From positions 1 through 64,000 of the forward strand of contig JAJXZL010000032.1 of NCBI GenBank assembly GCA_021780075.1: DNA of 64,000 bases, given 5' to 3'. The number at the start of each line of letters is the position of its first letter. Positions within the stretch are counted from its first letter, which is position 1. This document shows positions 4,912 through 34,277 of this stretch, in pieces. The notes beneath the pieces are model-generated. The model was given only the letters and a program-made list of their open reading frames with translations, searched no databases and was not told where the DNA came from. Origin of the DNA: Acidobacteriota bacterium (GTDB lineage: Bacteria; Acidobacteriota; Terriglobia; Terriglobales; Acidobacteriaceae). The position numbers and the translations under genes are program-made.

Positions 4912-5010
4912 GTGGGGCAACCCTGTGGCTGGGTTGGGATTGTGGTCTCCCACCCATGTCGCCCGCCTGCGGCGAACGCCATGGATGGGGCACCCGCAGT
5001 TCTACGGTAA
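4912..5010. repeat. Dispersed 100-base repeat, copy 1
   Basis: Almost identical to 6353-6450: both read from gtggggcaaccc through a shared block around cccacccatgtcgcccgcct to a gcggtaa-like end, with only a few differences over about 98 bases. It is GC-rich, contains short inverted elements (gcccgcctgcggcgaac), and is intergenic both times. It is not a recognisable IS and encodes no transposase. Confidence 0.85.
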
Positions 5011-6352: not shown

Positions 6353-6450
6353 GTGGGGCAACCCGGCTGGCTGGGTTGGGATTGTGGACTCCCACCCATG
6401 TCGCCCGCCTGCGGCGAACGCCATGGATGGGGCACCCGCATCTGCGGTAA
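6353..6450. repeat. Dispersed 100-base repeat, copy 2
   Basis: Second copy of the element at 4912-5010. Here it is preceded by a short inverted repeat (tggggttcaacccca, about 6308-6322) and by ctttcgctggcgcgaaggac. It sits between the truncated Rhs gene and the downstream end of the protease-like gene, exactly where the Rhs frame breaks down. Confidence 0.85.
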
Positions 6451-19404: not shown

Positions 19405-20457
19405 TTACTGGCGGTCGATGCCATAGACGGGAACATCCTCATCCAATTTGTACACCAAGGCTGCCGCGCGCCAGGTGTAATCCGACTGCGGAAATTTGTC
19501 TTTCAACTTTGCGGCGAGCGCGCGGGCGTGGTTGTGGGCCTGGTCCTTCTTTTTGTCGCTGCCGTCAGCGGCGTACATGTCTGTGAGGACCGCCTGCCGG
19601 TAGGCGGCTTCATAGAGCGCCTTGGCCGTGCGCGGGCTGTCAGGATGCTCGGCTGCGTATTTCTCGTAGATGTCGGATTCGCGCTCAGGGCACTTGGGTG
19701 ATCCTTGCCAGTCGCCGCAGAGCTTGTTATCGAGGAGTTCGAAGGCGGCAAGATCGGCCCAGCGCGTACGCGGGTAGTACTTGACGACCTTCTTCAACTC
19801 GTCCTCGTCCATTTGTTCGCGCAGGATGGGGTCGCGCTCCTTGGCGGAAGGCAAGGAGGAAAGGTCGGCCTTCTCCAGTTGCCACAGGATGTCCGCGGCG
19901 CGCCACGCTGCCTGGGGCGCGAGGGGCGAGTCGGGGAACATTTCCACGAGGCGGCGGTAGAGCAGGCGGGCGCTGCGGGCGGCGTTTGCGGGGCCACGCG
20001 GATCGCTGGCGAGCGCTTCCTGATTGGCGGCCGTGCCCATGAGCACCTGGTCGCCGTTGGGAGTGGTTTCAATGACGACGCCCTTGGCCTCCATCCAGCC
20101 GGTGATGGGCGGAGGCGTGTCATTGCTGCCGAAGTCCGGGGTGTCGCTCCGGTGCTCCTCTTCAATGTCGGTGTTGGCGTAGACGCGCAACCAGGGGCCG
20201 CTCTTGTCCGCGACGACCATTTCGCGGCCGATCTGCACGCGGTCCACCTTTTGCGCGCTTTTGTCGGGTGTGATGTAGAGCCAGGTCACGCGCAGCACGG
20301 TGGCGCGCGGGCCAGCCATGGGCTTGACCATCTGCGGCGGCTTCTTCTGGCCGCTGGCGGCGAGCGCGGCGCAGGCGACGGCCAGGACGAGAGCCAGCGC
20401 GCGCGGAGCGGCGTGGCAAAGTGCGCGGATGGGGGGCTTCGTCACAGAAAGCATCAT
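19405..20457 (-). CDS. Secreted SH3-like/TPR-like protein of unknown function
   Basis: About 350 residues. A signal peptide (ALALVLAVACAALAASG) is followed by a segment that looks like a bacterial SH3 domain (TVLRVTWLYITPDKS, VQIGREMVVADKSGPWLRVY), and then by helical repeats with the pattern ARLLYRRLVEMFPDSPLAPQ and YEKYAAEHPDSPRTAKALYE, as in TPR proteins such as the YbgF/BamD group. I chose the ATG at 20457 because starts further upstream would overlap threonine dehydratase. The gap to that gene is 13 bases, suggesting co-transcription. Envelope role is inferred only. Confidence 0.68.
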   Translation of the reverse strand: MMLSVTKPPIRALCHAAPRALALVLAVACAALAASGQKKPPQMVKPMAGPRATVLRVTWLYITPDKSAQKVDRVQIGREMVVADKSGPWLRVYANTDIEEEHRSDTPDFGSNDTPPPITGWMEAKGVVIETTPNGDQVLMGTAANQEALASDPRGPANAARSARLLYRRLVEMFPDSPLAPQAAWRAADILWQLEKADLSSLPSAKERDPILREQMDEDELKKVVKYYPRTRWADLAAFELLDNKLCGDWQGSPKCPERESDIYEKYAAEHPDSPRTAKALYEAAYRQAVLTDMYAADGSDKKKDQAHNHARALAAKLKDKFPQSDYTWRAAALVYKLDEDVPVYGIDRQ

Positions 20458-20470
20458 AGCGGAAAGGACG

Positions 20471-21517
20471 CTACGGAGCGGTTTCGGTAAGCACATCGGC
20501 GAGCAGGGCGGGATCGACATTGCCGCCGCTGACCACGGCCACAGCCTTGCGGTACGAGGGCAGCTCGGCGGCGTGAAAGAGCAGCGCGGCTACGGCCACG
20601 GCTCCGCTGGGCTCGGGTACAAGACGGGCGGTGGAGACGATGGCGCGCATGGCGGCGCGAATCTCCGCCTCTGTGACGGTTACGATGCCATCGACGAACT
20701 TCTGGATGTGCGCAAAGTTGCGCAGGCCCACGCTCTGCGTGCGCAGACCGTCTGCGATGGTGCGGCTGGTGAGCTCGGCGGGCCACTCGACGACGCGGCC
20801 GGTGCGGAAGCTTTCCGCGGTGTCGCCTGCCAGTTCGGGCTCGACGCCGATGACTTTGGCCTGGGGGCGCACTTGCTTGACGGCTGCGGCAACTCCACTG
20901 AGCAGGCCGCCGCCGGAAACAGGCGCGAGGACGAGGTCCACGTCGGGGAGTGATTCGACGATCTCAAGGCCGCAGGTGGCCTGCCCGGCGATGATCTGCT
21001 CGTCGTCGTAGGGCGGAATGACGATGTAGCCGTGCGCGCGGACGAGTTCTTCTGCCTTGGCGAGGCGTTCGCTGGAGGCTACGCCGACATCGACGACCTC
21101 TGCGCCAAGGGCCAGCGTGGCGGCGCGCTTGATGGCCGGGGCGTTGGACGGCATGACGATGACGGCTTTACACCCCGTCGACGAAGACCTGTCGCCGGGG
21201 ACCCCGTACTTTGCTCCGACGGCGCGGGCGGCGTAGGCGACTCCCTGCGCGTGGTTGCCGCTGGAGTAGGTGATGACGCCGCGGGCGATTTCCTCTGGTG
21301 TGAGCTGGAGGATTTTGTTGGCTGCGCCGCGGATCTTGAAGGCACCGATGGGCTGGAGGCTTTCCGCTTTGAGCCAGATTTCTTTGCCTGTGCCGTAGCC
21401 GGCGACGCCGGGAAAAGGCGCGCTGACAAGCGGGGTTTTAACGGCGATGCCGGCGATGCGCCGGGCGGCGGCGCGGATAGTTGCAAGATTGACCAGTTCC
21501 AAGTCAGTCCTCGTCAC
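20471..21517 (-). CDS. Threonine dehydratase (PLP-dependent, with an insertion)
   Basis: About 348 residues of fold-type II PLP enzymes. The Schiff-base Lys is in GAFKIRGA, the phosphate-binding loop is SGGGLLSG, and TYSSGNHAQGVAYAA is the substrate loop. It deaminates threonine or serine to a 2-oxo acid and ammonia. No C-terminal ACT regulatory domain is present, so it is likely a catabolic or short form. Between AARAVGAK and KAVIVMP, normally contiguous, there is an extra segment GVPGDRSSSTGC of about a dozen residues. GTG at 21517 is one of several poor starts; TTG at 21586 gives a longer N-terminus. Confidence 0.87.
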   Translation of the reverse strand: MTRTDLELVNLATIRAAARRIAGIAVKTPLVSAPFPGVAGYGTGKEIWLKAESLQPIGAFKIRGAANKILQLTPEEIARGVITYSSGNHAQGVAYAARAVGAKYGVPGDRSSSTGCKAVIVMPSNAPAIKRAATLALGAEVVDVGVASSERLAKAEELVRAHGYIVIPPYDDEQIIAGQATCGLEIVESLPDVDLVLAPVSGGGLLSGVAAAVKQVRPQAKVIGVEPELAGDTAESFRTGRVVEWPAELTSRTIADGLRTQSVGLRNFAHIQKFVDGIVTVTEAEIRAAMRAIVSTARLVPEPSGAVAVAALLFHAAELPSYRKAVAVVSGGNVDPALLADVLTETAP

Positions 21518-21573
21518 AAAACGATCACGTGCAGTTCCAGTGTAGACTTGGCCGTTCAGGAGTGTGCGCTTCC

Positions 21574-22080
21574 GTGGGAGTGACAAAGTTTTTCAAGGCC
21601 TACCGGGCCAAATGGCGGTTTGCCAGGAAAGATCGAGAATGGCAGCGGTCGCCTCGGCGAGAGGAACTGGATGCTGAGCGCGACCTGCCGCCTCGACCTC
21701 TTGCAACCCAGGAGCACGAATTGCTTTCGTGGATTCTTTATCACGGCTCGGAGGAAGCCAAATCTTTCCTGCCTCAGCTTGAGGGGATTCGGGCGGTGAG
21801 GTCTTGTACATGCGGCTGTCCGTCAATCCAGCTTGAGGTCACGGAGGGAACTCCTCTCGGGGTGACGTTGGCTGGCAGGTTGGTCTGTGATTTCGTGGGA
21901 AGAACCGCAACAGGCGCTTTGGTGGGACTCATCCTGTTTCAGGATTGCGGAAAGCTCTGTGAATTGGAGGCTTATTCGCTCGACGGTGAAGCGGGCCCTC
22001 CCGAGTTTGAATGGCCTACCATCGAAAGCCTGAGAGCGTTCGGCACAGCCGAATCCAGTGCGCCACCGCTCAATGAATAA
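21574..22080 (+). CDS. Conserved hypothetical protein with CxCGC motif
   Basis: About 168 residues, soluble, no signal. The first 50 residues are basic; the remainder begins QEHELLSWILYHGSEEAKSF, then has VRSCTCGCPSIQLEV with three close cysteines, and an acidic end. This resembles conserved acidobacterial unknowns, but I cannot name the family. The start is uncertain: GTG at 21529, 21562, 21574 or 21580 are all in frame, and AGGAG at 21559-21563 best suits 21574. Its 5' end is divergent from and close to threonine dehydratase. A cysteine cluster could bind metal, but this is not shown. Confidence 0.6.
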   Translation: MGVTKFFKAYRAKWRFARKDREWQRSPRREELDAERDLPPRPLATQEHELLSWILYHGSEEAKSFLPQLEGIRAVRSCTCGCPSIQLEVTEGTPLGVTLAGRLVCDFVGRTATGALVGLILFQDCGKLCELEAYSLDGEAGPPEFEWPTIESLRAFGTAESSAPPLNE

Positions 22081-22090
22081 TTGATGGAAC

Positions 22091-22123
22091 ATGCTTAGGG
22101 AGCGCTGAACATGCCCTAAGCAT
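22091..22123. terminator. Perfect inverted repeat between convergent genes
   Basis: atgcttaggg and ccctaagcat form a perfect 10-bp stem around a 13-base loop. It lies between the convergent unknown gene and RNase J. No T run follows on either strand, so termination is only suggested by position. Confidence 0.45.
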
Positions 22124-22191
22124 TCCCTCCGGGGCTAAAGCCCGATTCATTCTGCTTGCGTTGCTGTACGGGCTGAAGCGCGTACCCTTCG
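22123..22191. repeat. Dispersed ggggctaaagcccc-type repeat, copy 1
   Basis: Begins ttccctccggggctaaagcc and ends gggctgaagcgcgtaccctt. A close relative is at 29572-29638. Both carry two small inverted motifs (gggctaaagccc, gggctgaagccc) 30-40 bases apart, giving a likely double hairpin. Confidence 0.8.
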
Positions 22192-22221
22192 AAATGACCA
22201 ATCTGTAAGAGGTTCCCTGGA

Positions 22222-23877
22222 TCAAATTTCCATGATGACCGGCATGATCATGGGGCGGCGGCCGGTAGTTTTCTGGATGAGGCGCTTCAGGTCGGAGCGG
22301 ACTTTGTCCTTGACCATGCCGTAGTCGGTTTTCTGCTCGCCGCTCAGGTCTTCGAGTGTTTTGAGGACGGCTTCGCGGGCCTGCTCGGTGATGTCTGCGC
22401 CGCCGAAGCCGCGCATGACGACTTCGGGCGCCAGTTCGAGCTTGCCGGTGCGCTTGTTGATGGCCAGCACGGCGAGAACGATGCCGTCTTCAGAGAGGAT
22501 GCGGCGGTCGCGGATGACGAGGTCTTCGACCACGTCAATGGATGAGCCGGAGTCAATGAGCACGCGGCCCGCGGTGACCTTGTCCTTCTTGCGGGCGTTG
22601 TCCTTGTCGAGTTCGAGTACGTCGCCGTCTTCAATGACGATGGCATGCTCGACGGCGCCGGTTTCCATGGCGATCTGAGCGTGGCGGCGCAGGTAGCGGT
22701 AGTCGCCGTGCACGGGGATGAAGAACTTGGGCCGGACAAGGTTGATGAGCAGGCGCTGCTCCTCCTGGCTGCCGTGGCCGCTGACGTGAATGAGGCCGCT
22801 GGAGCCGTCGTCGCAGATGACGTTGGCATCGCGGCGGTAGAGGTGGTCGATGACGCGGAAGATGCCCTTCTCATTGCCGGGGATGATGCGGGAACTGAGT
22901 ACGACCGTGTCGCCGGCGTCGATGTGGGCGTGCTTGTGGTTGTCCACGGCGGCGCGGCTGAGTGCGCTCATGGGTTCGCCCTGCGTTCCGCTGATGAGGA
23001 TCATCAGCTGATCGGGGGAATAATCGCGTATCTGGCCGGGATTGATGACGAGGCCCGGCGGAATGTCGATGTAGCCCAGGTCCTGCGCAATCTCAGTGCT
23101 CTCCATCATGGAGCGGCCAACGACGGCCACCTTGCGCCCGTGGGTGCGGGCCAGCTCAAGGGCAATCTTGATGCGGTAGATGGACGAGGAGAAGCAACTG
23201 AAGAAGAGCTTCTTTTTGGTGCGGGAAAAGATTTCATCGAGACGCGGCACGACGGCGCGCTCGCTGGGCGTGTAGCCGTGGCGCTCGACATTGGTCGAGT
23301 CCTGGAGCAGGGCGAGAACGCCGCGCTTGCCGTATTCGGCAAAGGTGTGGAGATCAAAGGGCGTGTCGTCGAGCGGCGAGAGGTCGATTTTGAAGTCGCC
23401 GGTGTGGATGACGACGCCAACCGGGGTCTCGATGGCCAAGGCCACGCAGTCCACCAGCGAGTGGGTGACGCGGATGGGCTCGATGGTGAACGGGCCGATG
23501 GTGAATTTCTCTTTGGGCGTGATCTCGATGAGTTCGGTCTCGTCGAGCATCTGGTTCTCTTCGAGATTGCCCTCGACGTAGGCCAGCGTGAACTCGGTGG
23601 CGTAGACGGGAACCTTGAGTTCGCTGAGAAACCAGGACAGTCCGCCGATGTGGTCCTGATGGCCGTGGGTGAGGATGATGGCGCGGACGTGGGCCTTGTT
23701 CTCAACCAGATAGGAGATGTCCGGGACGACAACATCGACGCCCAGCAGTTCGGACTCGGGGAACATGAGCCCGGCGTCGATCACGATAATGTCGTCTTCC
23801 CAGCGCAACGCGAGGGAGTTCATGCCGAACTCGCCGAGCCCGCCCAGGGGGATGATTTTCAGTTTTTTTGTATGCAT
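22222..23877 (-). CDS. rnj: Ribonuclease J
   Basis: 551 residues of the metallo-beta-lactamase/beta-CASP family. RNase J has 5'-3' exonuclease and endonuclease activity in RNA decay and maturation. The zinc motif HGHQDHIGG is near residue 70, further ligands appear in VIHTGDFKID, and the beta-CASP block has LISGTQGEPMSAL and HVSGHGSQEEQRLLI with the histidine of VHGDYRYLRRHA. The C-terminal domain (about 450-551) is complete. Start ATG at 23877. It is divergent from the GH18 gene. Confidence 0.94.
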   Translation of the reverse strand: MHTKKLKIIPLGGLGEFGMNSLALRWEDDIIVIDAGLMFPESELLGVDVVVPDISYLVENKAHVRAIILTHGHQDHIGGLSWFLSELKVPVYATEFTLAYVEGNLEENQMLDETELIEITPKEKFTIGPFTIEPIRVTHSLVDCVALAIETPVGVVIHTGDFKIDLSPLDDTPFDLHTFAEYGKRGVLALLQDSTNVERHGYTPSERAVVPRLDEIFSRTKKKLFFSCFSSSIYRIKIALELARTHGRKVAVVGRSMMESTEIAQDLGYIDIPPGLVINPGQIRDYSPDQLMILISGTQGEPMSALSRAAVDNHKHAHIDAGDTVVLSSRIIPGNEKGIFRVIDHLYRRDANVICDDGSSGLIHVSGHGSQEEQRLLINLVRPKFFIPVHGDYRYLRRHAQIAMETGAVEHAIVIEDGDVLELDKDNARKKDKVTAGRVLIDSGSSIDVVEDLVIRDRRILSEDGIVLAVLAINKRTGKLELAPEVVMRGFGGADITEQAREAVLKTLEDLSGEQKTDYGMVKDKVRSDLKRLIQKTTGRRPMIMPVIMEI

Positions 23878-23985
23878 CTGTCAGTTTTGATGCTAACACT
23901 CATTGGCTTAGCGGGGTTAGCAGAGGTGGTGCGGCGGTGGAATTGGCGACGGTACTTTGGACGAGGTTTTGCGTCCATTGCAGAT

Positions 23986-25107
23986 ATGCGCCTGATTTTG
24001 ACGGCTGTTGCCTTTGCCATGCCCTTGTGTGCTGTTGCCGTGCCGCCCGCTGGGACTGCGGTGGCGGGCTATGTGTTTCCGCAAAAGACGATCCTGCAGC
24101 CGGGGCAGGTGGATGCGGACGGGATGACGCGGATCTATTACGCCTTCGCCAACATCAAGGATGGGCGGATGGTGGAGGGGTTTGCGCAGGACGCGGAGAA
24201 CATTCCGCAGGTGACGGCGCTTAGGCGGGAGAACTCGCAGCTTGAGGTGATGATCTCAGTGGGCGGATGGCTGTGGTCAGGCGGGTTCTCTGACGTGGCG
24301 CTGACGGCGAAGAGCAGGAAGGTGTTTATCCAGAGCGTGATGGAGTTTCTGGATCGCTATAGCCTTGACGGGCTGGATGTGGACTGGGAGTACCCTGGCA
24401 TGCCGGGCGCGGGACATGCCTTTCGCAGCGAGGACAAGGAGAACTTTACGCTGCTGCTGAAGGAGCTGCGCAAGCGGTTTGACTCGGAAGGGAAGAAGAG
24501 GCAGCGGAAACTCTATTTGACGATTGCTGCGGGGGCTTCAGATGAGTATCTGGCGCACACGGAGATGGGGAAAGTTGAGCGCTATGTGGATACGGTGAAT
24601 CTGATGACTTACGACTACTACACGCCGGGTGAGGACACGGTGACGGGGCATCATGCGCCGCTGTTTGCCAATCCTGCGGACCCGAAGCATGTATCGGCGG
24701 ATGCAACGGTGCAGGCGTTTGAGCAGGCCGGCGTGCCGGCGGGGAAGATTCTGCTGGGGATACCTTTCTATGGCAAGGTGTGGGGCGATGTGGGGGACAA
24801 GGATCATGGGCTGTTCCAGCCGGGGGTGAAGGCGCCGGGCGTGGATGCGGCGTATAGCGCGATTGAGGATACGATGCTGGGGCACGGGTTTACGCGGTAC
24901 TGGGATTCCAGCGCAAAGGTTCCTTATTTATATAGCGAAGAGAAGCGGGAATTTGTTTCGTATGAGGATGCGGAGTCGATTGGCGTGAAGTGCGACTACG
25001 TGCGGACGCATGGGCTGGGCGGGGTGATGTTCTGGAGCTACTTCAACGATCCTTCGGGCGAGCTGCTGGGGGCGATTGGCCACGGGTTGCACGAGGAATC
25101 GCAATAG
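23986..25107 (+). CDS. Glycoside hydrolase family 18 (chitinase-like), secreted
   Basis: 373 residues. A signal peptide (LILTAVAFAMPLCAVAVPPA) leads into a TIM-barrel with the GH18 signature DGLDVDWEYP at residues 128-137; Glu135 is the acid/base. LEVMISVGGW is the SxGG motif, VNLMTYDYYTP holds the substrate Tyr/Asp pair, and GGVMFWSYFNDP is the late-barrel Trp. All essential residues are present, so hydrolysis of chitin or a related GlcNAc polymer is expected. In-frame Met codons exist upstream at 23875 and 23899 but would spoil the signal peptide; no strong ribosome site is seen for any. Confidence 0.9.
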   Translation: MRLILTAVAFAMPLCAVAVPPAGTAVAGYVFPQKTILQPGQVDADGMTRIYYAFANIKDGRMVEGFAQDAENIPQVTALRRENSQLEVMISVGGWLWSGGFSDVALTAKSRKVFIQSVMEFLDRYSLDGLDVDWEYPGMPGAGHAFRSEDKENFTLLLKELRKRFDSEGKKRQRKLYLTIAAGASDEYLAHTEMGKVERYVDTVNLMTYDYYTPGEDTVTGHHAPLFANPADPKHVSADATVQAFEQAGVPAGKILLGIPFYGKVWGDVGDKDHGLFQPGVKAPGVDAAYSAIEDTMLGHGFTRYWDSSAKVPYLYSEEKREFVSYEDAESIGVKCDYVRTHGLGGVMFWSYFNDPSGELLGAIGHGLHEESQ

Positions 25108-25115
25108 GCGCGGAG

Positions 25116-26114
25116 CTACTCGCCGGGGAAGCGGACGCCGAGAGCGGTGCGGGCAGACTCAAGCAGGCGGGCCATGCCGATGGAGAGCTCGTGGGTGATT
25201 TCGGGGCTTTCCAACTGGTCGTGGCGGATGAGATCGCAGAAGTGGGCTGTCTCATAGTTGAAGCCGCCGTGGGTGAAGGGCTCATGGAGCTCGACGCGGC
25301 GGGCGTCGAGGTAGTGGACGGTGGCGCGCGTGGGGTTCCACCAGTTTTCGTGGATCATGACATAGCCGCCGGGAGCGGCGAGCAGAGCATCGCCTCGGCT
25401 GAGGAGGTCAAGGCCGGTGTGGAGCTGGGCCATGCCGCGCTCGTGCTCGGACTGGAAGAGAGCGAGGGTATCGACGCCTGCCGGACTGACGCGGCCCATG
25501 GTCTGCACGCGCTTGAGCGGGCCGAGCCAGTCGAGGGCCAGAAAAGCTTCATACGGGCCAATGCCCATGATGCCGCCACCGGCGAGCTCGGCGAAGTGGA
25601 GCGGGTAGTCGGGGGCGAGTGAAGAGTCCGCGTGGCCGGCGCGGACGTAGCCGACGGGGCCGATCGGGTCGGATTGCAGGTGCTCGCGGAGGCGGCGGTA
25701 GAGCGGGAAGAACGGTGGCTTCATGGCTTCCATGAAGAGGCGACCGTGGCTGCGGGCGGCGGCGAGGACTTCGGTTAGCTGGCGCTCGTTGAGCATGGCG
25801 GGTTTCTCACACATGACATGCTTGCCGGCGGTGAGGGCTGCGAGGCAGATTTCGGCGTGCGTGTCAGGGTGCGTGGAGACGTAGATGGCGTCGATGTTGG
25901 CGGCGGCGAGATCGTTGAGCGTGTCACAGACCTGCGGGACGTTGAAGCGCTGGGCGTAGGCGTGAGCGCGCTCCGGTGTGCGTCCCCAGACGGCGGCGAG
26001 CGAGGCGGCGGGGACGGCGGCAAGGCCCTGGGCGAAGCGCGCGCCGGCGCGTCCGGGACCGGCGACGCCCCAGCGGATGTGCTGCGGGGTTGGATTCACG
26101 TGCGAAGAGACCAT
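25116..26114 (-). CDS. Gfo/Idh/MocA family oxidoreductase
   Basis: 332 residues. The N-terminal Rossmann domain has WGVAGPGRAGARFAQGL for nucleotide binding, then IDAIYVSTHPDTHAEICLAA and the catalytic CEKPAML segment with Lys. The C-terminal alpha/beta domain resembles dehydrogenases acting on sugars, inositols or trans-dihydrodiols. The ATG at 26114 (MVSSHVNPTPQ) is preferred over a start 108 bases upstream, which would read into the repeat-bearing intergenic region. It converges on the GH18 gene, 8 bases apart. Substrate not predictable. Confidence 0.88.
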   Translation of the reverse strand: MVSSHVNPTPQHIRWGVAGPGRAGARFAQGLAAVPAASLAAVWGRTPERAHAYAQRFNVPQVCDTLNDLAAANIDAIYVSTHPDTHAEICLAALTAGKHVMCEKPAMLNERQLTEVLAAARSHGRLFMEAMKPPFFPLYRRLREHLQSDPIGPVGYVRAGHADSSLAPDYPLHFAELAGGGIMGIGPYEAFLALDWLGPLKRVQTMGRVSPAGVDTLALFQSEHERGMAQLHTGLDLLSRGDALLAAPGGYVMIHENWWNPTRATVHYLDARRVELHEPFTHGGFNYETAHFCDLIRHDQLESPEITHELSIGMARLLESARTALGVRFPGE

Positions 26115-26184
26115 CGACTCAATGTACCGCGTTGAGGTCGCGCGGGCCACAGCGACGCGAGCTTTGGCATGCGGAGTGCGGCAA

Positions 26185-26290
26185 GGAAATGATGTGCAAG
26201 CAAATTGTGGAAAACCGCACATTCTTTTTGGGGGTATAGGGGGGGTAGGGGGGGTGCCTTTTAGCCGCTAGCTCCTAGCTTCTAGCTCCT
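26185..26290. repeat. Degenerate intergenic repeat, copy C (with G tracts)
   Basis: Contains GGAAATGATGTGCAAG, tggaaaaccgcac, a T-rich block, then G5-TATA-G7-TA-G7 at 26230-26254 and a short tandem ctagctcctagcttctagc array at about 26268-26293. It parallels copy A at 4727-4815 in the same order. Confidence 0.65.
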
Positions 26291-26351
26291 AGCCGGGGTG
26301 GTTACTGGACGGAATCTGGTGCGGAGCGGGAGCTGTGGTTTGGTTTCACTT

Positions 26352-26420
26352 GCTGCAATTCCATTGTGCGGTATTGAGGGGAAATACTCTGCAAATTGGG
26401 CGGAGGAATTTTGGGGAGTG
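26352..26420. repeat. Degenerate intergenic repeat, copy D
   Basis: cattgtgcgg, then GGGGAAATACTCTGCAAATT, gggcggaggaattttgggg and gagtgg. Matches copy B and copy E in the order and spacing of motifs. Confidence 0.6.
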
Positions 26421-26508
26421 GCTGGATGGGAGTCGAGGCGAATTGACCTGGGCATGGCTGTGCATGATGGGTGGCTCTCTTCCGGGATTCATATTCAGAT
26501 GCACTTAC

Positions 26509-26568
26509 CATTGTGCGCCGGGGCGGGGAAATATTCGGCAAAACAGCGGCGCATTTTTTGGCGAGTGG
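26509..26568. repeat. Degenerate intergenic repeat, copy E
   Basis: cattgtgcgccgggg, then GGGGAAATATTCGGCAAAAC, agcggcgcattttttggc and gagtgg. It stands about 155 bases from copy D in the same orientation. Confidence 0.6.
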
Positions 26569-26871
26569 AATGAATGGGTTAGGGATGGACGCCGGACGTG
26601 GAGGTGTTGACAGCGCGTAAGTGGGACAGCCGAGGTTCGTTTGGGTTAGGCCTGGTTCGGCGAGATCACTACCCGGAGTCTGGAAGTGATTCTGAGGGGT
26701 TTTTGAACGCTCGCCGAGTTAAGGGGATTGGACTGGAGTTTCGCTATCGGATTCCGGGTTGAGATCTGTGGAATCCCCGGTCCCCAACTGCGAGGGACCG
26801 GGGGCACCCCTCATTTTTGGTTGAGAGAGGACGCTGGGATCGTGGCCACCCGCCGTCATCTGGCGCGCGTC

Positions 26872-28125
26872 CTAAGGGCCTGTTTCCCTAGGTTGCTTTT
26901 CCACCACCCCAGCGTATTTTCGACGACGGAAGTAGTCCGCGAGTTGGGAGATGCTGGTGGTTTCCGCAAAGTCCGGGTTCGATAAAAGGATAATCACAAC
27001 GCTCCGGCAAATCTGAAGAAGCGCGTTCAGGTCCTCTTCCTCAACCGAATTCTTTCCGGAATGCACAACAGACGAACGGATTCCGTAAAGGCGCTTCATT
27101 TCTTTTTCGACCTCCCACGGTTGCCATTTCGAGTTGCCTAGAAGGAACGCACAACTTTCGGCGATCTGGGCCATGATCGAGGGCGTGATTACACCTTTTT
27201 CGTTTGCACTGAAAAGCACTTCGAGCGCGATGGTGCCTTTGACGAAGGCGCTTGCGCCGTTCTGATCACCCATCGCTTGGCCCGTCCATTCCGCGCATCG
27301 TAGAACATGCCGTTCGAGTTCTGTGTTCTCGCTGGAAATCAGTTCAAACAGCCGGGAGATGGGCGCTTGTGGCTTCGAGAAATACGGATCATTGAGAGGA
27401 ATAGGTTGAAGTGCTCCGTTCCACGACGAGTTGTGTGTCATCGGGCCCTCCTCCGCAAAGACGAGACAATCTCGCAACTGCGGACCGGTGTAGTTCAGAA
27501 TGCCGACCTCGAGACGTTCAGTTCTGCGACCAATGAATACGCGGAAAACCTGTTCAAAACTATAAAAGCGAAGATTTGCGATCTCTTTGGCCCGTTCAGT
27601 GTCTCGCGCCTCGACTGTGCATTCGATGTAAACCTCATTCAATTCCTCGGGTTTGAAGGCCATCTCGATCAAGGGCGTCCGAGCTTTATCTCCGAGCAAT
27701 TGATTGCCGAATCCGATATCAAACTTCCCTAGGTTGATTGAGGGAGAACCAGGCGCAAGCATTACACCAAAAATTCGGCGAAATACCCGGAATCGGTAAA
27801 GAGGTAGATTCTTGATCTCATCCTCGAATCTCTTGGCCTCTTCGGGGGTGAATTCACTTCCGGCCAAGACCTTTTCCCGAACGAGCGGGATAAGCCTATC
27901 GAGCAGTTCCTTCAGGGACAGCGACTCTCTGACTTGAGGGCGCGTCTCGCGCAGGCATTCGAGAGCGTCTGTGAAGGAATCCACGTTCTCGCCCAGTACA
28001 CTGATTGCGGACTCTGAACCGATTCCAAACGTGCGGGAATTGATATTGCTTCCTACGGGAATGTCGCCTCGTACAAACAGCCTCACAATACCGTTAAGCT
28101 CTGATTGAATCGTGGTTCTTGGCAT
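26872..28125 (-). CDS. HEPN-domain (Apea-like) protein, unknown N-terminus
   Basis: 417 residues, soluble. Residues about 1-260 match no family I recognise. The C-terminal third looks like an Apea-like HEPN domain: helical, with ALEVLFSANEKGV and MAQIAESCAFLLG, then the motif RSSVVH (Arg350, His355), which fits the R-x(4-6)-H active site of HEPN ribonucleases. Codon use is visibly less GC-rich than neighbours, suggesting acquisition. Such proteins occur in abortive infection and other defence settings, or with unknown roles; defence is inference. The gene stands alone, about 510 bases from tRNA-Met. The ATG lacks a strong ribosome site. Confidence 0.68.
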   Translation of the reverse strand: MPRTTIQSELNGIVRLFVRGDIPVGSNINSRTFGIGSESAISVLGENVDSFTDALECLRETRPQVRESLSLKELLDRLIPLVREKVLAGSEFTPEEAKRFEDEIKNLPLYRFRVFRRIFGVMLAPGSPSINLGKFDIGFGNQLLGDKARTPLIEMAFKPEELNEVYIECTVEARDTERAKEIANLRFYSFEQVFRVFIGRRTERLEVGILNYTGPQLRDCLVFAEEGPMTHNSSWNGALQPIPLNDPYFSKPQAPISRLFELISSENTELERHVLRCAEWTGQAMGDQNGASAFVKGTIALEVLFSANEKGVITPSIMAQIAESCAFLLGNSKWQPWEVEKEMKRLYGIRSSVVHSGKNSVEEEDLNALLQICRSVVIILLSNPDFAETTSISQLADYFRRRKYAGVVEKQPRETGP

Positions 28126-28345
28126 ACCCCAAGTTTATGCCCGCTGATGGAATTGATCGGCGCGAGGTTGGGATTTGCCGGTTGTTTCTCAATTCCAACT
28201 AACGAGAGCAGGGCAAGTCACTCGTTGACCGCGATTTCCCTATCGCTTCAGCCGATAGGTCCCCGGAAACGGGTTTCAGTCAATCGACTCGTGGATTGCG
28301 TTGCAGGGCGCTTGTCGGGCGGGGTGGAGAGGGCGCAAGGCAACC

Positions 28346-28392
28346 GCGGATCTTTCGACTCCCTGCGCTGCGCTCCGGTCGCTCAAGATGAC
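28346..28392. repeat. Intergenic repeat of the gatctttcg...ctcaagatgac type, copy 1
   Basis: Begins gcggatctttcgactccc and ends gctcaagatgac. A related unit follows 60 bases later. This resembles a repeat style (ending CTCAGGATGAC) found between genes in many bacteria; origin unknown. Confidence 0.65.
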
Positions 28393-28451
28393 AGCCCGGT
28401 TTTGGTGGGGTGGCTGTGTCATCGTCAAACCGGAGATAAGAGAGAACGAAA

Positions 28452-28523
28452 GCAGATCCTTCGCTCCGCTTGCCCCAACGCGCTGCGCGCGCCGGGGCCC
28501 CAGGCTGCTCCGCTGAGGATGAC
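28452..28523. repeat. Intergenic repeat of the gatcctt...gaggatgac type, copy 2
   Basis: Begins gcagatccttcgctccgc and ends cgctgaggatgac; compared with copy 1 it has a longer GC-rich palindromic middle (cgcgctgcgcgcg, ccggggcccc). Confidence 0.65.
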
Positions 28524-28636
28524 ACCGCGCTGGGTGGGGCCGGAAGTCGTGCTCCGCTCAGGGTGGCAAGGCTTTGGATGTACGGGGGGCGGCGCGGTAG
28601 GGGCGCGGGTGCGGAGTGTGGCGTTGAGGAGACATC

Positions 28637-28713
28637 TGGTGGCGGAGGACGGGATCGAACCGTCGACCTTGGGGTTATGAATCCCACGCTCTAACCATCT
28701 GAGCTACTCCGCC
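28637..28713 (-). tRNA. tRNA-Met (CAT), elongator type
   Basis: 77 bases with encoded CCA. Acceptor GGCGGAG pairs with CTCCGCC, discriminator A. D-arm GCTCAGATGGTTAGAGC, anticodon loop TTCATAA with anticodon CAT, and T-arm GACGGTTCGATCCCGTC are all in place. The 5' GGCGGAG pair and D-arm fit elongator Met rather than initiator. Confidence 0.95.
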
Positions 28714-28838
28714 GGGAGGGAGCGGCGCGAGTGCGCCACCATATTGATGATACGGGCGGTTGGATTTGAGGTCAAACCTGCGGGGCGCGGCGGGCGGCGC
28801 GGCGATGCGCGGGGCGGCGCTGGGGTAAACTCGGCTGC

Positions 28839-29642
28839 ATGAGCAGGTTTCGTGTTGCAGGGGTGATACCGGCGCGGCTGAGTTCGACGCGGCTGGCGAG
28901 GAAGGTGCTGCGCGAGATTGCGGGGCGGCCGATGGTGGAGTGGGTGTGGCGCGCGGCGATGGCGAGCGGGCTGATGGACCCGGTGGTGGTGGCGACGGAC
29001 GCGGACGAGGTGGCGGCGGTGTGCCGGGAGCGGCGGATTCCGGTGGTGATGACGCCGGTGACGTGCCCGAGCGGGTCGGACCGCGTGCGGGAGGTGGCGC
29101 GGGAGATTGATGCGGATATTTATGTGAACATTCAGGGCGACGAGCCGACGCTGACGGGGGATTTTTTTGTGCCGCTGCTGGGGTTGTTTGAGCGGCCTGA
29201 AGTGGATGTGACCACGCTGGCGGTGCCGTGCGCGGCGGAGGAGATTGGGAATCCCAATGCGGTGAAGGTGGTGACGGCGCTGGATGGGCGGGCGCTGTAT
29301 TTCTCGCGGGCGACGATTCCGTTTGACCGCGATGGGGAGGGTTTCAAGGGGTATCGGAAGCACCTGGGGATTTATGCGTACCGGAAGGCGGCGCTGGAGC
29401 GGTTTGCGGAGTTGAAGCCTTCTCCGCTGGAGCAGGTGGAACGGCTGGAGCAGCTGAGGCTGCTGGAGAATGGGATTGCGGTGTATGTGGCGGCTGCTCC
29501 GCGGGACACGATTGGGGTGGATACGGAGGAGGATTTGGCGCGGGCGGAGAAGGTGCTGCGGGAGCGTGGAGTTCCCTCAGGGGCTAAAGCCCCCGCTATT
29601 TGCGGCGTTCATGTGCGGGCTGAAGCCCGTACCCTTCGTTGA
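28839..29642 (+). CDS. kdsB: 3-deoxy-manno-octulosonate cytidylyltransferase
   Basis: 267 residues. It activates Kdo with CTP to CMP-Kdo for lipopolysaccharide inner-core synthesis in the cytoplasm. Motifs: PARLSSTRLARKVL (residues 11-24), VATDADEVA, and VNIQGDEP, followed by YRKHLGIYAYR and PLEQVERLEQLRLLENG; all typical of KdsB. The family normally ends shortly after the D-T-x-EDL segment (VDTEEDLARAEKVL). Here the last 22 residues or so, from VPSGAKAP to the end, are encoded by a dispersed repeat that also leads into the TGA. This implies Kdo-containing LPS and a Gram-negative envelope. Confidence 0.93.
   Translation: MSRFRVAGVIPARLSSTRLARKVLREIAGRPMVEWVWRAAMASGLMDPVVVATDADEVAAVCRERRIPVVMTPVTCPSGSDRVREVAREIDADIYVNIQGDEPTLTGDFFVPLLGLFERPEVDVTTLAVPCAAEEIGNPNAVKVVTALDGRALYFSRATIPFDRDGEGFKGYRKHLGIYAYRKAALERFAELKPSPLEQVERLEQLRLLENGIAVYVAAAPRDTIGVDTEEDLARAEKVLRERGVPSGAKAPAICGVHVRAEARTLR
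29572..29638. repeat. Dispersed ggggctaaagcccc-type repeat, copy 2 (in kdsB 3' end)
   Basis: Begins ttccctcaggggctaaagcc and ends gggctgaagcccgtaccctt. It is a close copy of 22123-22191, but here it forms the last codons of kdsB. Confidence 0.82.
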
Positions 29643-29761
29643 AGCTTCTGCCTTTGGAGGGTGTCAGCAGGTTTACAGGTTCCCGGTGTACCTGCTTGCT
29701 TGTGAAGAATTTGAATTGTAAGCAAGATTCGGAGTGCGCGGTGGGGCGCGGCTGGGCGACG

Positions 29762-30862
29762 ATGGCTTGCATGAGCGCGAGTGTTGCTGTGGCAGTGAGA
29801 GATGTGAAGAGAGTAACGATCGATCCCGAAACGGCGTGGGCGCAGGTGGTGCGGCGCGATGCGGCGGCGGGATTTTTCTATGCCGTGACGACGACGGGCG
29901 TGTTTTGCAGGCCGGGGTGCGCGAGCAGGCGGCCACGGCGGGAGAATGTGCGCTTTTTTGCGACGGCGCGGGAGGCGGAGGCTGCGGGATTCAGACCGTG
30001 CCAGCGATGCAGGCCATTGTCGCCGGCGAGCGATGTGGTGGCGAAGTTGCGAGCATACATTGAGCGGAACGCAGACCGAGCGGTTGCATTGGACGAGCTG
30101 GGGCGCGTGGCGGGGATGAGTCCGTTTACGGTGCAGAGACGGTTCAAGGAGGCGATGGGAGTAAGTCCGCTTGAGTATCAGCGGGCGCTGCGCGCGGGAC
30201 GTTTGCGAGAGGCGTTGAAGCGGGGTGCGACGGTGACGGATGCGGTGTATGCGGCGGGGTTTGGGTCGGCGAGCCGGATGTATGAAGGCGCGGGGCTGGG
30301 GATGAGTCCAGCGCGGTTTGCGCAGGGCGGCAAGGGCGAGCGAATCGGGTTTACGACGGCGCGGACGGCGTTTGGGTGGATGGTGGTGGGCGCGACGGAG
30401 CGCGGGCTTTGCTGGTTGGCGCTGGCGGGAACGGCGGGCGAAGCGGAGGCGAGCTTGCGGGAGGAGTTTCCGGCTGCCACGCTGCGGCGGGATGCGTCAC
30501 TGAGAGAGCTGGTGGACGCGTCGCTGGCGAGCGTGGAGGGCAAGGCGCGGACGCAAAAGCATGCCGCACCGCAGGTGCCGCTGGATTTGCGCGGGACGGT
30601 GTTTCAACTGCGGGTGTGGCAGGCGCTGATGGAGATTCCGCGGGGCGAGACGCTGAGTTACAGCGAACTGGCGCGGGAGATGGGCGCGCCGAAGGCGACG
30701 CGCGCGGTGGCGCGGGCCTGCGCGATGAATCGCGTGGCGCTGGTTGTGCCCTGCCATCGGGTGGTGGGCGCGAGCGGATCATTGACCGGGTATCGCTGGG
30801 GCGTGGAGCGCAAGCGGCAACTGCTGGAGGCGGAGAGACGAGAGGTTGCTTCCAGCAGCTAG
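29762..30862 (+). CDS. ada: Ada bifunctional DNA repair protein / AraC-type regulator
   Basis: 366 residues. The N-terminal zinc domain has Cys49, Cys53, Cys80 and Cys83 (GVFCRPGC, FRPCQRCRP); the first accepts methyl from phosphotriesters. The middle is an AraC helix-turn-helix (DELGRVAGMSPFTVQRRFKE, VTDAVYAAGFGSASRMYE). The C-terminus is the O6-methylguanine transferase with VPCHRVVGASGSLTGYRWG, the Cys being the acceptor. It repairs alkylated DNA and in E. coli activates its own transcription. The start at 29762 is a judgement; an in-frame ATG at 29639 would add an unlikely leader. It follows kdsB by about 120 bases. Confidence 0.93.
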   Translation: MACMSASVAVAVRDVKRVTIDPETAWAQVVRRDAAAGFFYAVTTTGVFCRPGCASRRPRRENVRFFATAREAEAAGFRPCQRCRPLSPASDVVAKLRAYIERNADRAVALDELGRVAGMSPFTVQRRFKEAMGVSPLEYQRALRAGRLREALKRGATVTDAVYAAGFGSASRMYEGAGLGMSPARFAQGGKGERIGFTTARTAFGWMVVGATERGLCWLALAGTAGEAEASLREEFPAATLRRDASLRELVDASLASVEGKARTQKHAAPQVPLDLRGTVFQLRVWQALMEIPRGETLSYSELAREMGAPKATRAVARACAMNRVALVVPCHRVVGASGSLTGYRWGVERKRQLLEAERREVASSS

Positions 30863-30900
30863 CTTTTCGGTTCCAGCCACAATGCTCCGGTTTTGTGCGC

Positions 30901-32187
30901 TCAGCGGTAGGAGTCGTCGCGGTGGATGACGAATTCGGGATAGGCACCGCCGCCGAGTTCGTGGAGGTCCATGCCGATGCGCTCGCCGTCTGCTTCTACG
31001 CGGAAGGGGAGCACGCGGTTGAGGAGCCAGAACAAGAGATAGACGAGCGGCAGGATGAGTCCGAGGAGCGTGGCGACGCCGACGAGCTGGGCGATCAACT
31101 GGCCCGGCGCGGAGGAGAAGATGCCCGCGGCGATGAGTCCCCAGATGCCGCCGCCGGCGTGGACGGAGATGGCGCCGGAGGGGTCGTCGATGGAGAGAGC
31201 GAGCTCGAGGAGCTCGACGAAGACAGGGGTGATGATGCCGGCGACGATTCCTGCGAAGAGCGCTTCAAGCGGCGTGGCGATGCTGGCGCAGGCGCTGGAT
31301 GTGGCAAGTCCGGCGAGCCAGCCGTTGGCGCAGAGGCTTGCGTCTGGCTTGCCGAAGCGGATGCGGGTGATGGCGAATGTGGTGGCGAGCGCTCCGGCGG
31401 CGGAGAGCAGCGTGTCAATGGCGATGACCGGCAGCGCGGTGGGCGTGGTGTTGAGCCAGAGGATTGCTCCGGCCATGTTCCACGCGAGCCAGCCGACGAG
31501 GGCGAGCAGGCAGCCGAAAACGATATAGACAGCGTTGTGTCCGGGAATGGCTGTGGAGAGGCCTTCGCGGGGGAATTTACCTTTGCGGGGGCCGGCGATC
31601 CAGACGACGACGAATGCGCTGAAGCCGCCGAGGACATGGACGAGAGACGCGCCACCGCCGTCCAGGAAGCCCTGGCCGAGCGCGAAGTTGATGCCGAGCT
31701 GCGCGAGCCAGCCGGTGCCCCAGACCCAGTAGGCAAGGATGGGAAAGACAATGGCGGCAAGGATGGCAGCCGCGGCGGCGCCAGCGGTCAGACGCCAGCG
31801 ATCGGCTCCAGAGCCCCAGGGAATGATGACGGCGAAGGCGACGGCGAGGAATTCAAAAAGGATGCCGAGCTGCGTCTCGACGGACTCTGCGCCGAGGCCG
31901 CTGAGCGCGAAGTGACCCTGGCCGATCCAGTTCCAGGGCTTGCCGGCGATTTCAAAGAGATAGCCGGTGGGAGGGTAGGCGAAGGTTGCGCCGATGAGCG
32001 CGAAAACGATGATGGCCACGGCGACGATGACGAGGCTGCCGAGCAGCGACTGTGCCGCCGAACGCGCACGGCCAAGGCCCGTGTTGATGAGCGCCACGCC
32101 CGCAATGGCAAGCGGCGCCATGAGGAGAAGCACCAGGGTCAGAGCAAAGGCTGTTTCAGGGAAGGGAAGAGCTGCGTATGGATCCAT
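30901..32187 (-). CDS. amt: Ammonium transporter, Amt family
   Basis: 428 residues, about eleven membrane segments. It carries ammonium/ammonia across the inner membrane. The twin-histidine pore residues lie in ASLVHVLGGFSAFVVVW and in SVHAGGGIWG, and IPGHNAVYIVFG is the family signature. It diverges from the AmtB consensus (DGAGG becomes DGGGA). No glnK gene is seen next to it. The start at 32187 has GAGGAG nine bases upstream and lies 2 bases behind a very small membrane protein gene, which probably heads the operon. Confidence 0.92.
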   Translation of the reverse strand: MDPYAALPFPETAFALTLVLLLMAPLAIAGVALINTGLGRARSAAQSLLGSLVIVAVAIIVFALIGATFAYPPTGYLFEIAGKPWNWIGQGHFALSGLGAESVETQLGILFEFLAVAFAVIIPWGSGADRWRLTAGAAAAAILAAIVFPILAYWVWGTGWLAQLGINFALGQGFLDGGGASLVHVLGGFSAFVVVWIAGPRKGKFPREGLSTAIPGHNAVYIVFGCLLALVGWLAWNMAGAILWLNTTPTALPVIAIDTLLSAAGALATTFAITRIRFGKPDASLCANGWLAGLATSSACASIATPLEALFAGIVAGIITPVFVELLELALSIDDPSGAISVHAGGGIWGLIAAGIFSSAPGQLIAQLVGVATLLGLILPLVYLLFWLLNRVLPFRVEADGERIGMDLHELGGGAYPEFVIHRDDSYR

Positions 32188-32189
32188 GG

Positions 32190-32366
32190 CTACTTTTCTC
32201 CTCGGTTCGCCAGATGGGCGCGGACGGCGACGGTAAGGCCGATTAATTCGACGAGCAGGCCTGAGAGCACAAAGGCCGCGCGGGGGGCGGTGGAGGAAAA
32301 CAGCACGATGGCTGCAACAGAGAGGAAGAATCCCGCTGGCATGACCAGCAGTCCGGCGTTTTTCAT
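32190..32366 (-). CDS. 58-residue small membrane protein upstream of amt
   Basis: Begins MKNAGLLVMPAGFFLSVAAI and continues with a second hydrophobic stretch (FVLSGLLVELIGLTVAVRA), ending in NRGEK. Two membrane helices are evident. AAGGG lies upstream of the ATG, and the stop codon stands 2 bases before the amt ATG, whose ribosome site GAGGAG is inside this gene. It is therefore probably translated, coupled to amt. The family is unknown to me; a role in Amt assembly or regulation is only a guess. Confidence 0.65.
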   Translation of the reverse strand: MKNAGLLVMPAGFFLSVAAIVLFSSTAPRAAFVLSGLLVELIGLTVAVRAHLANRGEK

Positions 32367-32588
32367 GGCCCTACCCTTTCAAACTTGCATTTGATGGATG
32401 ACCGCTCTCCAGACTCGTGTCGATAACTTACATAAGAATTTTGTGACGGAGCGCAACTGGCTGAAACGTCCTTATGAATTCTAAAGCATCCGAAGGTTAG
32501 GATTGGGCAAACGGTCGCGGTGGCGGTGTGCATCAGCACTGCGGGCTGCGTCCCTGCTGCTTTCCCACTTTAATTGGAGGTCTTCATC

Positions 32589-32948
32589 ATGAGTTTCTTG
32601 AATCGGCTGGTGGCAAACCCGCTGGGCGCTTTCAGTGTGCTGAGCGTGGCGGCGTTTCTCGAGGTCTGGGGCGACTCGTTCTTTCAGGCGAGCTTTTACC
32701 GCTCGGCGGGGTTGGGGCGGGTGCTTGCGTTTGCGGCGGGCGCGGTGGTGCTGGCCTGCTACGGTTCAGTAGTCAACGTGCCGCAGTGGGATTTTGGCAA
32801 GCTGCTGGGGGTGTATGTGGTTTTGTTTTTCGTGATGGCGCAATTGATGGCAAGGGTGCGCTTTGGGCAGTCGCCCACGCCGTCGATTTATGCAGGAGGC
32901 GCGCTGATTGTGGCGGGCGGCCTGGTGATTGCGTTCTGGAAGGGCTGA
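32589..32948 (+). CDS. Small YnfA-like membrane protein
   Basis: 119 residues with four hydrophobic helices. Features such as FLEVWGDSFFQ near the N-terminus, LACYG in the middle, DFGKLLGVYVVLFFVMAQ and the ending AGGALIVAGGLVIAFWKG resemble YnfA/UPF0060 and small DMT-superfamily proteins. GGAGG precedes the ATG at 32589 by nine bases, so the in-frame TTG at 32574 is not the start. Transport function is plausible but unproven. The gene is monocistronic, converging on the TauE-like gene. Confidence 0.72.
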   Translation: MSFLNRLVANPLGAFSVLSVAAFLEVWGDSFFQASFYRSAGLGRVLAFAAGAVVLACYGSVVNVPQWDFGKLLGVYVVLFFVMAQLMARVRFGQSPTPSIYAGGALIVAGGLVIAFWKG

Positions 32949-32994
32949 GCCAGGCATTGCATAGGTGATGCGCTGATTGGGCTCCGGGCCCGGC

Positions 32995-33723
32995 TCAGAT
33001 GCGGCCGGTGATTGCCTGGACCATGAGAACTGCGCCGATGCAACCGAGGCCGAGATAGACGTACTTCATAAAGACTTCGGCGCGGAGGCGGTGATTGATG
33101 ACCCGGCCCAGGAAGACGGCGGGCAGCATGACGGGCAATGCGAGCAGATAGTAGCGCGTTACGGCGTGGACCCAGAGGCCGCTGAGCCAATAGCCGGTCA
33201 TGCCGAGAATGCTGGCGGGGAGAAAGTATGCCTGGAGCGTGGCGCGGAAGTGCTGCGCGGACCAGCGGCGCATGGATCCGTAGATGACAAGCGGCGGGCC
33301 GTTCATGCCGTAGGCGCCGCCGAGGACGCCTGCAATGAAGCCGAAGAGAAGCAGCCATGCGCGGCGATCGCTGCGCAGTTCCAGCGGCGTGCTCCCGGAG
33401 AGCGAGTAGACAGAGAAGGTGATGATGAGCGCGGCCAGTGCGGCTTTCACGGATCTTTGATGGCTGCTGGTGAGGAGCAGGAGGCCGAGCGGTATGCCGA
33501 AGAGCGTGGGCAGCACGAGCCAGCCCGTGCTGTAGAGATGAATCTTTTTCCAGTCCTGCGCGACGACGATGCCGGCAATGGTGATGGAGACAAGCACGGC
33601 GAGCGGCGCGGCCACGCGCAACGGCATGAAGAAGGCAAGCAGCGGGACAGCGACGAGCGCTTCACCGAATCCGAATGCGGAGCGGATGAGCGTGGCGAAA
33701 AATACGATGAGAAGAACAGCCAA
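32995..33723 (-). CDS. TauE/SafE family membrane transporter
   Basis: 242 residues, about seven to eight membrane helices. It has the two related halves of the family: an early LIRSAFGFGEALVAVPLLA and a later AGVLGGAYGMNGPPLVIYG. Members export sulfite or sulfoacetate-like anions, but many are of unknown substrate. The TTG at 33723 is the first start in frame that gives a normal N-terminus; there is no strong ribosome site, and an ATG at 33792 is in a different frame. The start is therefore the weak point. Confidence 0.8.
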   Translation of the reverse strand: MAVLLIVFFATLIRSAFGFGEALVAVPLLAFFMPLRVAAPLAVLVSITIAGIVVAQDWKKIHLYSTGWLVLPTLFGIPLGLLLLTSSHQRSVKAALAALIITFSVYSLSGSTPLELRSDRRAWLLLFGFIAGVLGGAYGMNGPPLVIYGSMRRWSAQHFRATLQAYFLPASILGMTGYWLSGLWVHAVTRYYLLALPVMLPAVFLGRVINHRLRAEVFMKYVYLGLGCIGAVLMVQAITGRI

Positions 33724-34277
33724 AGTAACGAGGTGGATTGTGATCTCCGTGACGCGCGGGATTTGAGATTGCCGGCGCGGACAGGAGTCATGTTCTCACG
33801 CGCGGAGTGATGGATGCTGGATTGGCGGTCCAGACAGTTGCGGGGGGCAGAGCCTACGGCCAATTTTGATGAGCATGCGGCGCGTTGGAGGGATCTGAGG
33901 ACCGCGGTAAATTGCCACAATGCGAGACGAGTGGCGAGTGGTTAAGTTGACGTGATAATTTGTTTGGAACGTTGCACTCTCTGGTGTTCGGTACGCCAGA
34001 GAGACGGTGGTGTATTCCCCATAAATGAATTCGTCACAACGTATAGTGTTTTCAAGGCTATACAAAAGTTTCGCAGGGCAAACATTTTTTGAAATTTGAG
34101 GGGCAGGAAGGCTTGCGGAAAGGCTTTAGGCTGCTATATTGAATTTTCGGGGTCATCCGATGCACTTCCCCTCTCCGCATTAAAACAGAAAATAACCGCA
34201 ACGTATGTGACGGCCAGCACAACGCTCACGATACGGTACGCAACTGAAGCAAGCGAAATCGAAGCAGGAAAGCATTC
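33724..34277. other. AT-richer upstream region of the respiratory operon
   Basis: About 550 bases without a supported gene. It is visibly less GC-rich than the surroundings, as expected for a promoter region of a long operon. It contains a 6-bp inverted repeat (gtatag at 34041-34046, ctatac at 34058-34063) that could be an operator, and a promoter candidate at 34113-34140. Confidence 0.6.
34113..34140 (+). promoter_or_regulatory. Candidate sigma-70-type promoter of the act-cox operon
   Basis: TTGCGG and TATATT separated by 16 bases, about 137 bases before actA. The -10 matches 5 of 6; the -35 only 3 of 6. No experimental support. Confidence 0.33.

Follow-up and report, generated by a model that had tools for sequence, protein, structure and literature searches.

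A short palindromic repeat of the Acidobacteriaceae at the lengthened 3' end of kdsB and in frame within other proteins

Introduction

Rickettsia and some REP-bearing species are the main bacteria in which palindromes are known to lie in frame within conserved proteins. The Rickettsia palindromic elements, found in Rickettsia, measure 105–146 nt (passages of PMC2229807) and are portrayed in excerpts of PMC2229807 and PMC3733652 as small palindromes that occur between genes as well as in frame in conserved proteins, which they lengthen and in which they are tolerated. REPs of the GTAG/CGTC type are short palindromes as well and mostly intergenic; according to passages of PMC3733652, some lie in open reading frames, slightly more than 10% are found at the ends of coding regions, and some provide a stop codon. 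MITEs with coding frames (ERIC, Correia and YPAL) form a third point of comparison, being non-autonomous repeats with open frames that become fused to genes (passages of PMC2229807). In the Acidobacteria, many short repeats were counted in Solibacter in PMC3174227, in passages that contain no such protein insertions, and a search of the open-access literature, with subscription papers and preprints outside its scope, yielded no report of protein-inserted palindromes.

The element described here was found in a 64,000-nt stretch of Acidobacteriaceae DNA (contig JAJXZL010000032.1; hereafter the window) and resembles all three systems in the traits of form and placement just listed. It differs from the Rickettsia palindromic elements, with which it was compared by description rather than by sequence, in its length of about 67 nt, its two separate hairpins and its occurrence in the Acidobacteriaceae. 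One copy lies at the 3' end of kdsB, and a first-pass annotation had claimed that this copy lengthened the gene.

Results

The element opens with TTCCCTCA and the hairpin GGGGC-TAAA-GCCCC; about 20 nt of variable spacer then lead to a second hairpin (consensus GTRCGGGC-TGAA-GCCCGTAC) and CCTTC. Two copies are present in the window (Table 1), with spacers that differ in both length and sequence; the pair was not reported by an ungapped repeat finder with a minimum of 40 nt. The second copy is flanked by an ORF that stops at 22080 and the gene for RNase J (22222–23877, reverse strand). The covariance model R1, built from seven copies of this genome including both window copies, gave 49 matches at E ≤ 1 in the whole 3.88-Mb genome, 29 of which were below 1e-3. 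A strict two-hairpin pattern matched the genome six times and the reversed control not once. On these counts, the element is not due to chance. Conservation fell at both edges (130 upstream and 120 downstream contexts, taken from the 130 copy loci described below), and the element is therefore a discrete unit; the edge consensus is TTTCCCTCA ... CCCTTCA (120–130 contexts).

Folded alone as DNA, the kdsB copy formed both hairpins with a modestly low energy (z −1.76, equalled by 11 of 200 shuffles). In an alignment of 32 distinct copies of this genome, which was fitted to the model and is hence biased toward its pairing, 96.5% of the pair cells were standard (78.0% in shuffles) and both-side changes occurred at 10 of 12 pairs. 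When the partner columns of these copies were shifted by 1–3, pairing dropped to 25–48%. No listed Rfam family matched the element in a search of window positions 20000–34000 at E ≤ 1, which returned a tRNA (28640–28713) and, far short of their gathering scores, two human lncRNAs.

Table 1. Positions of the element, its hairpins and the neighbouring features in the window.
Feature	Position	Strand	Basis and details
Second window copy of the element, intergenic	22123–22190	+	Model R1, 77.8 bits, E 2.3e-18 genome-wide
kdsB (3-deoxy-manno-octulosonate cytidylyltransferase)	28839–29642	+	267 aa; stop TGA at 29640–29642
Two-hairpin palindromic element	29572–29637	+	Model R1, 82.9 bits, E 8.5e-20 genome-wide
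First hairpin, GGGGC-TAAA-GCCCC	29580–29593	+	Sequence, fold, covariation
Second hairpin, GTGCGGGC-TGAA-GCCCGTAC	29613–29632	+	Sequence, fold; 8 of 8 pairs changed on both sides among copies
Extra DNA missing from empty sites, containing the stop now used	29638–29712		Empty-site comparison
ORF of ada type (Ada_Zn_binding, AraC-type HTH and methylguanine-DNA methyltransferase domains)	29639–30862	+	Pfam
Leader of the downstream ada-type gene, matched in empty-site relatives	29713–29829	+	blastn to L154 and L158

Two curated models identified the product of the lengthened gene as KdsB, with scores above their cut-offs (NF003952, 275.5 bits, cut-off 193; TIGR00466, 202.9 bits, cut-off 155.2), while the scores with NF009905, NF003948 and NF003950 were below theirs. 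The kdsB frame stays open across the whole element, which overlaps codons 245–267 and supplies those residues in whole or part; the C-terminus reads ...RERG-VPSGAKAPAICGVHVRAEARTLR. As judged from this open frame, the tail would be translated in the cell. Curated KdsB models stop at residues 233–243 of the window protein, and KdsB chains of the PDB align no further than residues 236–244. An AlphaFold2 model computed with 20 aligned KdsBs had a mean pLDDT of 85.4 and a final helix at 230–242. The predicted KdsB fold was confident to about residue 245, and residues 246–267 had a pLDDT <50. The tail lies outside the conserved fold and is disordered by prediction. The match that the first-pass annotation had drawn between the kdsB end and an intergenic copy near 22123 is real (Table 1). 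Its statement that the repeat gives the C-terminus holds for residues 245–267, whereas the stop into which the repeat was said to lead begins two bases outside the element, on its 3' side; the tail peptide it gave does derive from the element but lacked the last three residues.

The C-terminus was compared across 136 kdsB loci (80 named, 30 from a genus search including the window's own locus L093, 3 further loci and 23 stretches), among which some genomes are present twice. The genus search had matched kdsB in 53 of 59 genomes, with one locus examined in each, and gave no match in 6. From residue 226 onward, the protein extends over 17–29 residues in all 135 other loci and over 42 in the window. 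None of these 135 has the element near the stop (in up to 400 nt behind it), and none has the same C-terminus without a repeat in its DNA. The closest relative by kdsB, G034 (91% over residues 1–243), ends in ...KNRDEP and has unlike sequence behind the stop. In two places, L155 (G071) and G026:C19:28480-28677, a second partial kdsB 3' end was found about 1.4 kb behind the first, possibly a tandem partial duplication.

An assembly or base-call error, in which a frameshift or chimaera near 29570 removed the stop, could also produce a long C-terminus, and the genome is a draft of 53 contigs known from its assembly alone. Such an artefact is nevertheless highly improbable: the site lies inside a contig, the same element occurs at many other places, and the frame is intact up to the element, with 91% identity to L094 over residues 1–243 and no intervening stop.

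The same kdsB–ada junction was present without the repeat in G067 (L154, with an identical reading in L012) and G075 (L158). Its matching flanks are separated by 24 and 14 nt in these genomes, compared with 155 and 145 nt in the window, so that the window junction is 131 nt longer in both comparisons. The element accounts for only 66 of these 131 nt; therefore, either this was not a clean single insertion or later changes followed. The extra DNA behind the element had no second copy in the genome and a weak fold (z −0.60). The true start of the ada-type gene is probably further in than 29639. That the repeat lengthened the kdsB frame, as initially claimed, is supported by these two empty sites and by a tail unique among the 136 loci. 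The comparison with KdsB of relatives that had been proposed as a check found all 135 others without the tail. The other proposed check was for genes ending in the same peptide: in the 30 copy loci of this genome, with L138 left out of one of the two gene-call analyses, no other gene reads through a copy to end in the KdsB tail peptide, but a weak copy (29.8 bits) provides, in a hairpin loop, the TAA stop of an amino-acid permease (L149, approximately 1505–1516).

Overall, the best explanation, to which we assign a probability of roughly 0.86, is that insertion of the element lengthened kdsB and that the tail was tolerated. A short non-autonomous palindromic element, present in high copy number in the Acidobacteriaceae, would have entered the kdsB 3' end once this lineage had split from the closest relative sampled. 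The former stop, found in relatives a few codons past residue 244, would thereby have been displaced. Being free of stops in the orientation and frame of kdsB, the element would have permitted read-through to the TGA in the flanking DNA, with the addition of about 23 residues. The tail is most likely a harmless, tolerated accident and near-neutral, a neutrality that we infer. A co-opted tail or co-opted message-end hairpins, stabilizing KdsB or its mRNA and kept by selection, would fit the intact hairpins at the kdsB end, the conserved function of kdsB in this genome (curated models) and the suggestion, in passages of PMC3733652, that REPs downstream of genes act on mRNA. We consider this unlikely, as the tail occurs in one species only and is predicted to be disordered, and copies of the family are scattered over unrelated genes.

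Every one of the 79 genus genomes searched contained the element (E ≤ 1e-6); between 1 and 64 matches were obtained per genome, from at most 65 candidates scored in each. In a phylum sample of 297 genomes, it was present in 32, namely 28 of the 31 members of the Acidobacteriaceae and 4 genomes outside the class; these denominators were derived from the listing order, in which 245 genomes without a match are unnamed. One genome of another genus of the family (G279; L407–L421) contained 15 near-identical cores in units with imperfect terminal inverted repeats of approximately 20 nt, a sign of recent MITE-like movement. In the genus studied here, the sampled copies show no such terminal inverted repeat, and their conservation ends at the core.

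Insertion into kdsB presumably occurred by transposition of the element. A neighbouring RAYT was considered as the mover and dropped: a scan with R1 of 32 PF01797 loci (three of this genome and 29 of relatives, best-scoring loci only) gave one weak match (E 0.018, L003). Neither a GTAG nor a CGTC tag was found at the element edges in the 120–130 contexts. With neither the tetranucleotide that marks one palindrome end in these super-families nor, in the 32 loci, the flanking RAYT of the GTAG type, the element was not filed as a GTAG/CGTC REP.

Other repeats were also observed. A different dispersed 73-nt repeat with a hairpin occurs twice in the window (4926–4998 and 6368–6440; 99% identical) and resembles, by eye, hairpins that follow the kdsB stop of L096 and L107. 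Elsewhere in this genome (L091, approximately 660–1640), a tandem array of another repeat lies immediately 5' of a Y1-type transposase gene. Window positions 52293–53893 contain six copies of a 44-nt stretch at a spacing of approximately 300 nt, probably encoding a repeat-domain protein.

Copies inside other proteins were sought in 130 copy loci (30 of this genome and 100 of relatives), taken best-scoring first. Hits numbered 168 in 126 of the 130 loci; after removal of 24 that did not span the full model, 144 remained (138 distinct by context), of which 116 were intergenic, whereas 22 lay antisense and 6 sense relative to a called gene. Gene calls came from a codon model of our own, for which eight gene segments of the window served as the training set, and not from a standard gene finder. 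Where a copy overlapped no more than a called start (L233, L234, L271, L300 and L150), the start was likely mis-set and the copy was not counted as coding. Twenty of the antisense copies, at 19 distinct places, share one frame that reads KGTGFSPY, followed in nearly all by GALAPEG. Pfam named 14 of the 17 scanned proteins with such copies: an ABC transporter, Lhr, DUF58, RsmB, Maf, ThyX, LpxB, UvrC (twice), a CorC-type protein, a glycoside hydrolase, TsaD, leucyl-tRNA synthetase and a relative of AIR synthase; L250, L286 and L292 had no Pfam match. Within this genome, the element lies antisense and in frame in the ABC transporter (L123, C34), Lhr-type (L132, C31) and DUF58 (L133, C33) proteins. 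One sense copy lies inside a ScpA protein (L315), and a proton-antiporter-type protein (L322) terminates within a copy. The element peptide is at different positions in the UvrC proteins of L265 (G037) and L318 (G060).

Two of these proteins were compared with relatives. DUF58 was matched in 62 of the 79 genomes, and 29 relatives were fetched; the peptide was absent from 27, including G034 with 85–91% identity on either side, whereas L326 has a form of the peptide and L325 a sister form. In L326 (G007), the start of the peptide occurs three times in tandem (KGTGFSP-KGTGFSV-KGTGFSPY). The ABC transporter was matched in 72 of the 79 genomes. Among 29 fetched relatives, 17 have a short loop, approximately 10 carry this or a related repeat peptide (as read from the alignment) and 2 are unclear. 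G034, also among those fetched, shares the insert; the two sequences differ at 4 of 75 nt, in each case between the hairpins. One linker was thus hit repeatedly. By sequence comparison, the in-frame copies are insertions in DUF58 and the ABC transporter, the two proteins tested.

The frame and orientation of the copies were biased. All 20 antisense KGTGFSP copies have a core-to-core spacing of 35, compared with 42 of the 105 intergenic copies whose spacing was measurable (in 11 further ones it was not). This is largely a condition of read-through rather than proof of selection, because other spacings place a stop in that frame. The frame bias tells more: several frames are free of stops, yet among 25 copies lying in a frame with 80 or more open codons to either side, 19 use the KGTGFSPY frame, which makes up 65 of 254 open frame-copies (binomial 1.9e-7); stop-free length does not prove a gene and some of these 25 may be shadow ORFs, the best-scoring copies were sampled, L123 and L224 are orthologous insertions, and L229 and L290 represent a single place. 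Of the copies within 100 nt of a gene end, 61 were antisense and 37 sense, so that the orientation of insertion alone does not suffice to explain the frame bias. The excess of one frame may come from tolerance of the peptide, from orientation bias or from both. The kdsB copy has the less usual orientation, opposite to that of most intragenic copies.

Discussion

The element works like the Rickettsia palindromic elements and intragenic REPs. As in the former, the palindrome is in frame in conserved proteins, at 19 distinct places, in 14 of 17 scanned proteins named by Pfam and with empty sites for two proteins. DNA-repair genes are among the targets in both this element (uvrC) and the GTAG/CGTC REPs (uvrA, in passages of PMC3733652). 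Terminal inverted repeats, as in MITEs, surround the core in the 15 units of G279 and were not seen in the sampled copies of the genus studied here. As a habit of the family, intragenic copies would survive where they are in frame and in loops, linkers or ends of proteins. A wider reading, offered tentatively and held with some doubt, is that untagged two-hairpin palindromes form a superfamily in the Acidobacteriaceae that is adapted to protein interiors and in which one antisense frame (KGTGFSPY...GALAPEG, with a sister KGHDFSRA...) provides a flexible peptide that repeatedly enters loops of essential enzymes. Gene bodies and intergenic DNA would then both be its habitat, and the kdsB tail, in the opposite orientation, a minority case.

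Taken alone, the kdsB case is a modest example of a known phenomenon, and the element family is the more interesting result. It places such insertions in a free-living family in which many genomes harbour tens of copies, close relatives show empty sites, and the ABC transporter linker and UvrC have been hit repeatedly. Where a protein of the Acidobacteriaceae has an odd tail or loop insertion, a repeat may be its source. The Acidobacteriaceae system could be used to study how functioning enzymes acquire peptides from mobile DNA, what makes a single orientation and frame predominate, and whether such additions are neutral.
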